From contig NW_017265149.1 of NCBI RefSeq assembly GCF_001638985.1, positions 987,619-1,051,618 of the forward strand: a DNA stretch of 64,000 nt. The letters are read 5' to 3'. A program made the translations under genes and the position numbers. Positions 26,623-31,075 of this stretch are shown in pieces (position 1 is the stretch's first letter; the number at the start of each line of letters is the position of its first letter). This stretch comes from Phycomyces blakesleeanus NRRL 1555(-) (lineage: Eukaryota > Mucoromycota > Mucoromycetes > Mucorales > Phycomycetaceae). The notes under the pieces were generated by a model. That model saw nothing but the letters and a program-made list of their open reading frames with translations, made no database searches and was not told the DNA's origin.

Positions 26623-29600
26623 ATGGATAAATCATCTATAAACGAAGACGTGGATCCAGTCTATCCAATTGCCGAACGTATGCTGGGAGACCACAAAGCG
26701 AACGTTGAAGACATTGTCAAATATGAAGAAATGTGGGAGTCAAGTATTAACACTCCCGACATATTCTTTGGAGACGTAAGAATAAAAACAAGAAACACAT
26801 ACAAATACAAATACAGATACAGATACAGATACGAAGACAAAGTCAAAGACAAGGACGAATATACACTAGACGCGTCTCTTTAATTGCTAGCCTGGAAACA
26901 AATATCAGCAATATATACACTGGGTGGATATCAATTTACTAACAGCTCATATATATATATATATATATGTATGCATTTTGGGTATATAAATATAGCTTGC
27001 ACGTGAACTCTTGAGTTGGACAAAACCTTTTGAGAGAGTTCAACAGGGCAGCTTCCACGAGGGAGACATTGCCTGGTTCCTGGAAGGAGAGTTGAATGCG
27101 TGTTATAATTGTGTTGACAGATATGCTCTCGAAACACCAGACAAAGTAAGATACTAGAATAGTCATCTTCCGTTTGACCTTTCAATGTTCTTGCAAAAAA
27201 TAATAATATATGCATTTATACATATACATCATTTGTCCTTCTTTATTTGGCGAATATTATTCGTGTGTGTGTGTGGGGGTGTGTGCTTTTTTGTTACTAT
27301 AGATTGCCATAATTCACGAAGGTGACGAACCAGAGAATGTTCGTAAAATAACATATGGAGAACTTCTTCAAGAAGTCTGTCGATTGTCCAACGTACTCAA
27401 GTCAATGGATGTCCACAAAGGAGACAAAGTAATAATCTACATGCCCATGATTCCAGAAGCAGTCGTAGCCATGCTGGCATGCGCCCGTATTGGTGCTGTC
27501 CATTCTGTCGTATTTGCTGGGTTTTCATCAGATTCGCTAAGAGATCGTATTGAAGATTGCGGAGCTCATGTGGTTTTGACATCTGATGAAGGACGTCGGG
27601 GTGGAAAGAATATCGCGACAAAGTTGATCGTGGATGAGGCCATCAAAGGCACCACAACCACCACAAGTACAGTCCGTCACGTCTTGGTTTACCGCAGAAC
27701 AGGCTCAGATGTGCCCTGGACAGAAAATAGAGATCTTTGGTGGCATGATGAGATGGCCAAGGCACGCCCTTACTGCCCATTAACGACCATGAGTTCCGAG
27801 GACCCCTTATTCTTGCTGTACACCTCTGGATCTACCGGAACGCCAAAGGGAATTGTGCATACTACTGCAGGATACCTTATAGGAGCAGCATCAACAGTAA
27901 AATATGTGTTTGACTATCAGCCTGGTGACATCCACGCCTGTATGGCCGACATCGGATGGATTACTGGTCATACTTACATTGTCTACGGCCCTCTTGCTCT
28001 CGGTGCCACCACAGTCTTGTTTGAATCGACTCCCACCTATCCTGATCCCTCCCGTTTCTGGAAGATGGTCGAGAAGCACAAGGTTACCCAATTCTACACC
28101 GCTCCTACCGCCATTCGAGCCCTTCGCCGTCTTGGCGACAAATGGTTGGAAGGCATCGATCTTTCGAGCTTGAGAGTTATTGGGTCTGTCGGTGAGCCAA
28201 TCAATCCAGAGGCATGGGAATGGTACAATGCACAGATTGGTAAAGGAGAATGTGCTGTGGTTGACACATACTGGCAGACTGAGACGGGCTCGATTATTAT
28301 CAGTCCTTTGCCAGGTGTTACGCCCACTAAACCTGGATCGGCCACACTTCCTTTCTTTGGAATCAAGCCTGTGATTCTAGATCCTCAGACTGGTGCTGAG
28401 CTAGAGGGTAACGACGTAACGGGTGTGCTGGCCATTTCCCAGCCGTGGCCATCCATGGCTCGTACTGTATACAACAACCACCACCGGTATCTTGAAACAT
28501 ACCTCAACCCTTACAAGGGCTTTTACTTCACCGGTGATGGAGCCAGTCGAGACAAGGATGGATACATCTGGATTCGTGGTCGTGTCGACGGTAATTAATA
28601 ATAGCACTAAAAGATGTAGAGAACACAAGTATATATATATATTAAGGGAAGACATCAACTAAACAACTCCTTTGACAATTTTTCTTTTAGATGTGATCAA
28701 TGTTTCTGGCCATCGCCTGTCTACTTCCGAAATTGAATCTGCACTGATTCACCACGAGTCTGTAGCTGAAGCTGCTGTTGTCGGTGGCCATGACGACCTA
28801 ACTGGCCAATGTATCCATGCCTTTACTACATTGAAGCCCAACGTCGAGATATCAGAAGGACTTGAGAAAGAACTTTCTCTTCAGGTTCGCAAAGTGATCG
28901 GGGTAAGATCCAATTTAGTTTTAAGGTTAAGTTTGAGTTCGAGTGTACCGTAACTCGAGTTCTCCCCAAAAAAGGAAGTTCGTTAAAGAGAAAGAGAGTT
29001 ATTCTTAACTCTTTTGTCATTATACGTTTAGCCATTCGCAACTCCTAAGCGTATCTATGTTGTTTCCGACCTACCAAAGACTCGTTCCGGAAAGATTATG
29101 CGCCGGATTCTGCGCAAGATCGTTAATAAAGAACATGACGACCTTGGTGACATTTCCACGCTAGCAGATCCTTCGTAAGCTGGTTATTTATTATTATTAT
29201 TTTATTATATATTTAACTAAACCATGTACAAAATACGTATATGTGGAGCAGGGTTGTTGATACACTGATTTTCAAAGTTCTTGGCCCGGATGCCTTGATT
29301 AACAAAAAGACAAAAGGCGACAAAGGTAATACTCATTCTCTTACATTTTAGGGTCAATGAAAGAAGAAGAAAAAAGAGATAGTTACTCATTAGAGATTTA
29401 ATCGGAAGAACTGATGTTTATGATACGATATGATATGTTGTGAATATTTTGTAGCACCTAAAGACGATGCAGCCACCCCAAACGAGTCTGGTACGACTAC
29501 TGCGCCCGACGCACCCAGATCACCTAGCGATAATGGCCCTGAAAGAAAGCCTGTTGAATTGAAAATAGAAGGCGACGACTGGTTTGCATTGCAAGTACTC

Positions 29601-30615
29601 TAAATAACTTTGTAGGGTTGAAAGAATACCTCCTTGCTTGACTTCTAACCTTTTGTGTGCATGTATCTATTATTATCCAACAGATTCAATCCAGATGTAA
29701 ATAGACGCCTCAATATTGACCTTGTACATTCCTTTGATCATGATGGTGTAGTGTGTAGTGTCAAGTTTAGTCCAGACGGATATTTTTTGGCGACCGGTGG
29801 CAACAAATTGACAAAGATTTATGATACTACCTATGGTGCATTAATAGCGTAAATTGATCAAAAATTGATTGGTGGAGGGACAAATGTATATATTTATCTG
29901 TCTAATCGATTGTCTAACATTTTTAGGGTTCTTCAAGATGAAAATGCTGGTGAGAATGAGTCGTACATTCGTGCACTTAGCTTTAGTCCAGATGGCAGAT
30001 ATATTGCAACCGGTTCTGAAGATCAGAAAATTCGTGTATGTAAATTTTAATTTTGAATCCTCACACCAAGAAATAATCATAATCATAATAATTAATGTTT
30101 ATCATGTGTTTGTGTTTGTGTGTATGTGTACTGGTCTAGATCTGGGATATCGCAAAGAAGTGCATTACACGAGAGTTGATTGGACATGAACAAGACATCT
30201 ACTCGCTTGACTTTAGCAAAGATGGTCGTGTATTGCTGTCTGGCTCAGGAGACAAGACTGCCCGTGTGTGGGATTGGGTTGAAGGAACATGCCTCCACAA
30301 GTTAGAGGTCTTGGACTTGGAAGATAACATAAATAATACCAGTGTGACAAGTGTCTCTGTCTCCCCAGATGCTCTTCTAGTTGCCACCGGAAGTCTTGAT
30401 AGTATGATCAGAATTTGGGACATTCAAAAAGGAGAATTGGTTGAGGAATTCTCAGGACACGGCAACAGTGTTTACTCGGTTGGATTCATGCCAGACAACA
30501 ACAGCGTAGTGAGCGGTAGTATTGACAAGACCGCATGTCTATGGAAACTAGGATCAAGCCGGGCATCTGGAGATGAGGAAGCTTGCAAGCAAAAGTTTGT
30601 TGGTCATAAGGTAAA

Positions 30616-30646
<31 letters not shown>

Positions 30647-31075
30647 TCCCCACCACGGACACCTTAACTTTTGGGTTTGAGTTTCTTTGGTCGTTGTGTT
30701 CCAAGAGTCAAAAATAGACGTTTTTCCGTTATTAACGTAATCTTTGTCCCACTCTGTGTAGGACTTTATATTATCTGTGGCTACAACTCCCTGTGGAGAG
30801 TGGATTATATCAGGCTCGAAGGACAGAAACGTTCAGTTCTGGGATCCCCACACCGGAGAAAATCAATTCTTGCTGCAAGGACACAAGCAATCGGGTAAGA
30901 AAACCAGAGATGATACAATCTCTGTGTTCAGGCTTACTTTTCTTCGTAACTCACCCACTCGACTACTTCATTTGTAGTTCTATCCGTTGCTGCCAGTCAA
31001 GGCAAGAGACGTTTATTTGCCACTGCTTCTATTGATAGTAAAGCTCGTGTTTGGAGTTACGATTTATTGGTCTAA
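26623..31075 (+). CDS. Acetyl-CoA synthetase fused to a Tup1-type WD40 propeller (twelve exons, 1043 aa)
   Basis: Exons: 26623-26775, 26996-27145, 27303-28590, 28691-28902, 29032-29174, 29252-29325, 29455-29590, 29684-29848, 29927-30035, 30140-30610, 30762-30894 and 30978-31075; every junction is in phase (3132 nt). Residues 1-~672 are a complete AMP-forming acetyl-CoA synthetase: ATP loop YTSGSTGTPKG at 274-284, TYWQTETGS, the hinge YFTGDGASRDKDGYIW and catalytic Lys622 in PKTRSGKIMRR. A short Pro/Ser/Asp linker leads to IEGDDWFALFNPD, the same junction found in TUP1 (VEGQDWFALFNPN), then seven WD40 blades ending ARVWSYDLLV. Exons of 165 and 133 nt match TUP1 exactly. No in-frame Met occurs between the linker and blade 5, arguing against a separate WD40 gene. 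Intron 7 is GC-AG; retaining it stops the protein at 29601. Inferred: acetyl-CoA made at Tup1-bound chromatin. Confidence 0.85.

Follow-up and report, generated by a model that had tools for sequence, protein, structure and literature searches.

How an acetyl-CoA synthetase (ACS) could come to share one reading frame with the WD40 propeller of the corepressor Tup1, and what the product would do, is the question raised by a locus of the fungus Phycomyces blakesleeanus NRRL 1555(-). The window analyzed is a whole stretch of 64,000 nt (contig NW_017265149.1, positions 987,619 to 1,051,618), and the gene in question occupies positions 26623-31075 (+) of it. Our favored reading, which we hold to be moderately probable, is that this is a chimeric gene probably formed by partial tandem duplication. 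Its predicted product is a protein of 1,043 aa in which a Tup1 propeller without the Tup1 N terminus would bring an intact ACS to promoters under Tup1 control.

Architecture of the fusion gene

The gene has 12 exons whose phases agree at every one of the exon joins. Its spliced length is 3,132 nt and the only stop is the terminal one, which bears out the initial annotation, made from the sequence alone, in its claim of 12 exons without a phase break; the frame holds only with a GC-AG intron 7. GC content is 0.38-0.51 in the exons and 0.23-0.40 in the introns. In this single frame Pfam recognizes ACAS_N, AMP-binding, AMP-binding_C, and WD40. The ACS spans residues 1 to ~670, followed by a linker and, from ~715, by the propeller.

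On the same strand (+), the fusion gene stands in the middle between TUP1 (16952-19497; 10 exons, 544-546 aa), which we regard as the parent of the propeller half, and ACS2 (31917-35192; 6 exons as modelled), the sister of the fused ACS.

The acetyl-CoA synthetase half

The first 649 residues of the fusion are those of a public gene model of P. blakesleeanus NRRL 1555, PHYBLDRAFT_114540 (P0121), which splices onto the window without a mismatch. The ACS starts at ATG 26623 in exon 1 (26623-26775), where P0121 splices exactly, and P0121 also matches exon 2 (26996-27145), exon 3 (27303-28590), with the AMP-binding core, exon 4 (28691-28902), with the ACS C-terminal domain, and exon 5 (29032-29174), which reads PKTRSGKIMRR ... 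LADPS. P0121 scores 991.8 bits against TIGR02188 (acetate--CoA ligase), the cut-off being 724.95. Across 39 other ACS (36 fungal, 3 bacterial), 233 columns show conservation of at least 97%; of these, 231 are unchanged in the fused ACS and 228 in ACS2. Judged from its sequence, the fused ACS has the signature of an AMP-forming acetyl-CoA synthetase intact, including all three Pfam domains, as had been proposed.

Exon 6 (29252-29325) restores the canonical ACS end (SVVDTLI, here SVVDTLIFKV) and adds a short extension past it that is common to both Phycomyces ACS copies. An exon coding for the canonical end would be superfluous in a gene that always terminated at LADPS, and this counts in favor of the fusion.

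Two further observations concern ACS models at large. ACS2 ends in a Thr-rich, repeat-like C-terminal tail of ~240 residues (34403-35192) and is 905 aa long as modelled, compared with 644-704 aa in the 39 public ACS. In Rhizopus delemar, an 843-aa model (P0220) joins an ACS to PF01725, which we take to be a Ham1-type domain; it is possibly a merged gene model and a warning for claims of this kind.

The propeller half

The propeller begins in exon 8 (29684-29848) and continues through exon 9 (29927-30035), exon 10 (30140-30610), exon 11 (30762-30894), and exon 12 (30978-31075), which ends in the stop TAA. Exons 8 and 11, of 165 and 133 nt, are the same sizes as TUP1 exons 7 and 9, as the initial annotation had noted. 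Its further claim that the intron positions are the same holds for 4 of the 5 propeller introns, which match TUP1 in position and phase. It fails for the fifth (30036-30139), which is absent from the window's TUP1; match gaps place an intron there in the Tup1 paralogues on contigs C2 and C14, and loss of its counterpart from TUP1 is the more likely course.

The propeller is 64% identical (209/327) to that of the window's TUP1, so the two are related and yet the former is no near-copy. The ratio of nonsynonymous to synonymous divergence (dN/dS) between them is 0.118, with synonymous divergence (dS) saturated. Tup_N (PF08581), the domain that contacts Ssn6, is present in TUP1 (P0242) and is not among the listed Pfam families of the fusion (25/43), in which residues 1-714 are ACS and linker. 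Without the Tup1 N-terminal domain, the name "corepressor" is unsuitable for the fusion.

Phycomyces nitens contains an orthologue of the propeller half (P0241), with 82-83% identity, the 83% match covering 81% of the query. This protein has no internal stop; it is annotated as partial, has no Met, and its first residue is the first whole codon of exon 8. Its AlphaFold model, with a mean predicted local distance difference test score (pLDDT) of 93.4, contains 28 strands, the number that seven blades of four strands would give, and among PDB structures Tup1 (1ERJ) matches it best. Tree placement and this modelled orthologue identify the propeller as a seven-bladed WD40 of the Tup1 type.

The propeller half has been under selection since the two species split, and the positions needed by Tup1 have been protected. 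Across 36 Tup1 proteins, 136 columns show conservation of at least 95%; the fusion keeps 114 of them, P. nitens keeps 115, and 112 are kept in both. The two species differ at 6/136 of these columns versus 48/179 of the others (Fisher p=4.9e-8). This test is free of any estimate of synonymous sites. The physical link of ACS and propeller that the initial annotation had claimed is supported at the DNA level, with the propeller half conserved under selection in a second species.

The propeller also retains most of the residues measured as partner-binding hotspots in Tup11. From calorimetry, Wu and colleagues report a role in Fep1 binding for the top-face residues Y382, R384, Y426, Y508, L559, K575, and I601 of Schizosaccharomyces japonicus Tup11 (PMC3419727). 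Mapped by motif and spacing rather than from the S. japonicus Tup11 sequence, these hotspots are identical at 6/7 positions in the fusion (I601 is Leu) and at 7/7 in P. nitens; since all seven are invariant in the 36 Tup1 proteins, their retention is what would be expected of a working docking face and is no proof of binding. Two additional positions, predicted and of weaker effect, have changed: Ile replaces L524 in both species, and Ser replaces F557 in P. nitens alone. The kept hotspots fit docking of the predicted protein at Tup1-regulated promoters.

The speed at which the propeller changes weighs against our reading. Identity between the two Phycomyces species is 82% here, while two other Tup1 pairs reach 94% and 96%; compared with other Phycomyces Tup1s, the rate of change of the propeller is several-fold higher. 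Such a rate, together with a weak intron 5 acceptor and the GC donor of intron 7, would suit a decaying chimera that is transcribed by chance and whose propeller half is heading for loss. We consider this very improbable, since the spliced frame and the P. nitens protein are both free of internal stops, the P. nitens propeller models well, and both the protection of Tup1-invariant columns and the number of such columns and hotspots that are kept speak for a maintained domain. Fast change outside the conserved positions would also be compatible with a fusion that is made and whose propeller serves stability, an ACS oligomer, or a cytosolic scaffold, with no tie to chromatin or to the partners of Tup1, and in many settings ACS works as a soluble enzyme of metabolism. 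The hotspots kept in both species would be of no use to a plain scaffold, although structural roles could account for some of them, and we regard this alternative as unlikely.

Predicted splicing across introns 5 to 7

The fused protein would require a transcript spliced across intron 5 (29175-29251), intron 6 (29326-29454; phase 1, absent from ACS2), and intron 7 (29591-29683). The three top-scoring GT/GC donors in 29100-29760 are exactly the three that the fusion needs. Intron 7 must be of the GC-AG type (GCAAGT), because all six GT donors in 29560-29660 hit a stop when joined to the same acceptor. A GCAAGT-AG intron occurs in the window's TUP1 as well (intron 2), and the public model P0242 accepts it. 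Between introns 6 and 7, exon 7 (29455-29590) encodes the linker and is the counterpart of TUP1 exon 6, the phases being alike in both genes (1 in, 2 out). The openness of exon 7 is in itself weak evidence, since 14% of its mononucleotide shuffles stay open in the used frame, and we place the weight on homology, matched phases, and selection.

A further set of observations counts against onward splicing. The intron 5 acceptor scores -5.6, under all 24 training acceptors (minimum 0.7), and with the stronger acceptor at 29351 (6.0) in its place the ACS would end in DPSVNERRRKKR. The training donors have a minimum of 5.8, which the GC donor of intron 7 (5.8) reaches and the intron 6 donor (5.6) narrowly misses. 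The public model P0121 terminates the ACS right after LADPS, at a stop in retained intron 5, and a separate propeller could begin from in-frame ATGs at 29430, in intron 6, or at 29661, in intron 7. The public model and these ATGs, together with the weak intron 5 acceptor and the alternative ACS ends, favor two genes or two products, namely an ACS that ends at LADPS, DPSVNERRRKKR, or KGNTHSLTF, and a separate propeller from ATG 29430 or 29661. The initial annotation had argued that a free-standing WD40 gene is hard to build, and this is weaker than stated. It had the intron 6 ATGs that it checked running into stops; ATG 29430 reads in frame into exon 7, which requires the GC intron, and only when unspliced does it stop, at 29601. 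ATG 29661 is in frame into exon 8.

The spacing of the candidate ends and starts bears on this alternative. An ACS ending at 29349 would leave ~78 nt before ATG 29430, and the later ends less, which we judge too short for a usual terminator and a promoter; a promoter within the ACS gene is possible. Exon 7 is moreover a phase-1 internal exon with a counterpart in TUP1, and the P. nitens model of the propeller half begins at exon 8 without a start codon. No stand-alone P. blakesleeanus propeller protein was found among the best 120 rows of a search over 217-690 aa, propeller pieces of <217 aa being outside its reach. We consider two products to be an improbable account of the locus, at about the level of the scaffold alternative. 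A start at exon 8 is also what would be expected of P0241 if gene finders fail at a GC intron upstream; the missing start could also stem from a sequence gap, which weakens the argument for the fusion.

The initial annotation had suggested a search for ACS proteins with WD40 in other species. No WD40 domain was found beside ACS in the best 120 of 8,000 scored protein rows, for which the Pfam column was complete. An orthologous fusion should have ranked at the top of these 120, and this result too goes against the fusion. On balance, the sequence features described above suggest to us that the chance of the fused product being made is somewhat better than even.

When the last ACS intron is retained, its donor, TTCGTAAG, encodes Ser followed by a stop; this holds for the fused ACS (29172-29177), for ACS2, and for the paralogue on contig C8 (L002). 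LADPS-type ends are also found in the public ACS models of Pilobolus (P0145) and Hesseltinella (P0148), which make up 2 of the 39 public rows, a set that does not include P0121. Because TTCGTAAG provides a stop when kept, such ends are easy annotation errors and could also be real isoforms. The kept donor is a possible conserved intron-retention end or a possible steady source of shortened gene models. An ACS spliced via acceptor 29351 would end in the basic sequence NERRRKKR (29352-29382), which resembles a nuclear signal and may be a chance purine run.

Probable origin by partial tandem duplication

Judged from gene order, phases, and phylogeny, a single partial tandem duplication that affected adjacent TUP1 and ACS genes likely gave rise to the chimera. 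The duplication would begin in a TUP1 intron before the linker exon and end in the last ACS exon. Such an event would yield the observed gene order, leave both parents intact, and give a linker exon with the TUP1 phases.

Phylogenetic analysis of both halves is consistent with this origin. The ACS tree, built from 41 rows, pairs the fused ACS with ACS2 as its sister (100/100). In the propeller tree, the fusion and P0241 are sisters (100/100), join the window's TUP1 (96/97), as the initial annotation had proposed in matching the propeller to this gene, and fall within a group of ACS-linked Tup1s (100/99). This tree used 35 of 42 rows (Apop_b, Rmic_b, Radi_683141, Blak_504, Pilo_501, Hess_b, and Dich_b were dropped) and has a long stem branch; a first tree of all 42 rows left the placement open and flagged long-branch joins. 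We rejected an origin of the propeller from the Tup1 genes on C2 or C14, with which it has the place of intron 9 in common, because the tree joins it to the window's TUP1 and the ACS-linked group. A recent copy was likewise rejected, given the identity of 64% to TUP1, the saturated dS, and the presence of the propeller half in P. nitens.

The pairing of the parent genes is not confined to this window. ACS and Tup1 lie on contigs of equal length in 8/37 species and in 9/152 within-species pairs. Misses are expected because the sizes come from the longest contig of each protein cluster; P. blakesleeanus, linked in the window, itself scored as a miss. In all 9 linked pairs the ACS lies outside a 17-row group of another ACS type, and the Tup1 lies inside the 18-row group of the window's TUP1 (90/71, 42-row tree). 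Consecutive ACS and Tup1 locus tags are found in Mucor saturninus (INT47_012639/_012640), which is among the 8 species, and in Rhizopus microsporus (G6F70_008525/_008526), which is outside them. The other P. blakesleeanus genes lie apart, with Tup1 on C2 and C14 and ACS on C8 and C17. The pairing of ACS with one Tup1 group in several Mucorales may carry a regulatory meaning of its own.

A comparison of the intergenic sequence 31076-31917 with 19498-26622 gave a best match of E 0.06 over 22 bases. With an ACS dS of 1.13, the copies are too old for more intergenic likeness to be expected, and none remains by which the event could be dated. Misassembly, which the initial annotation had named as a possible refutation, is unlikely, since P. 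nitens has the orthologous propeller half and the ACS half is that of P0121. The contig of P0121 is near-equal in size to that of the window (1,241,866 vs 1,233,467), although both records may go back to a single assembly.

Between TUP1 and the fusion, at 24256-25725, there are two open frames that may be exons of one gene; a Pfam scan of them gave no match.

Proposed function

Tup1 is recruited by DNA-binding factors, its propeller contacts these factors and deacetylases, and its N-terminal helix oligomerizes and meets histone tails (PMC9815585). Nuclear ACSS2 is reported to recapture acetate from histone deacetylation (PMC5276806); ACSS2 is brought to promoters with TFEB or CBP, and yeast Acs2 is found in the chromatin-bound SESAME complex (PMC8595138). 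Given this recruitment of Tup1 and the ACSS2 and Acs2 precedents, a propeller without the N terminus that carries an ACS would be expected to compete with Tup1 and to recycle acetate. The fusion protein would enter the nucleus, its propeller would still bind the DNA-binding partners of Tup1, and it would compete with Tup1 at those sites. Deacetylases there would free acetate, and the docked ACS would remake acetyl-CoA for acetyltransferases, which would make the fusion a local acetate recycler and an antagonist of Tup1 repression. Were intron 5 kept, or a different acceptor chosen, this gene would yield an ordinary ACS, and splicing may thus decide which of two products is made.

By analogy with these systems, a local supply of acetyl-CoA by the fusion is plausible. 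The nuclear location and promoter docking of the fusion are argued from analogy as well, and this weighs against the proposal. The most specific form of the model is a single-polypeptide acetate recycler in which the repression arm would have been swapped for ACS, which would displace the corepressor and remake acetyl-CoA on site from the acetate that Tup1-recruited deacetylases free, and for which intron 5 retention would choose between the fusion and a metabolic ACS; we put this forward tentatively, as unlikely to hold in every part.

Chromatin biology has yet to settle whether acetyl-CoA is synthesized locally at genes or drawn from one nuclear pool, and work on this question usually proceeds via non-covalent protein contacts. 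A natural covalent fusion would allow a direct test, in which the link is severed or the docking face altered and acetylation is watched at particular promoters. If true, the fusion would be a clear case of a corepressor docking wheel reused with the opposite chemistry, and of the tandem duplication of a conserved gene pair giving rise to a lasting new protein.

Comparison with known systems

A literature search that left most subscription journals outside its scope found no ACS-Tup1 or ACS-WD40 fusion in the portions of the sources it drew on. The nearest parallels are ACS enzymes that act on chromatin. Yeast Acs2, with SESAME and with the SAS acetyltransferase, resembles the proposed fusion as an ACS on chromatin that feeds histone acetylation (PMC8595138, PMC6124551). 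As described there, Acs2 is held by non-covalent partners, whereas the fusion would have its docking domain in the same polypeptide and has taken it from a repressor. Mammalian nuclear ACSS2 is similarly a promoter-recruited ACS that recycles the acetate of deacetylation (PMC5276806, PMC8595138), but it is recruited through signalled protein contacts, and the sections of these papers drawn on here describe no fused propeller.

The Tup1/Tup11 corepressor (1ERJ) has its propeller type in common with the fusion, 1ERJ being the best match of the P. nitens orthologue and the hotspots being kept; it has Tup_N, in place of which the fusion has an enzyme. ACSF4-U26 (AASDH) is, like the fusion, an acyl-activating enzyme with a beta-propeller motif, in its case a putative PQQ (pyrroloquinoline quinone)-binding one (PMC4882622). 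AASDH activates beta-alanine and its putative propeller is of the PQQ type, whereas that of the fusion is a Tup1-type WD40. With regard to origin, chimeras in Drosophila yakuba likewise arise where a tandem duplication crosses gene borders and fuses a 5' gene segment with the 3' segment of a different gene (PMC5460883). These are reported to be polymorphic and often young, whereas the propeller half of the fusion predates the split of P. blakesleeanus and P. nitens. Chromatin-bound ACS and tandem-duplication chimeras are thus both known, and the new part is the covalent link of an ACS to the docking domain of a repressor.

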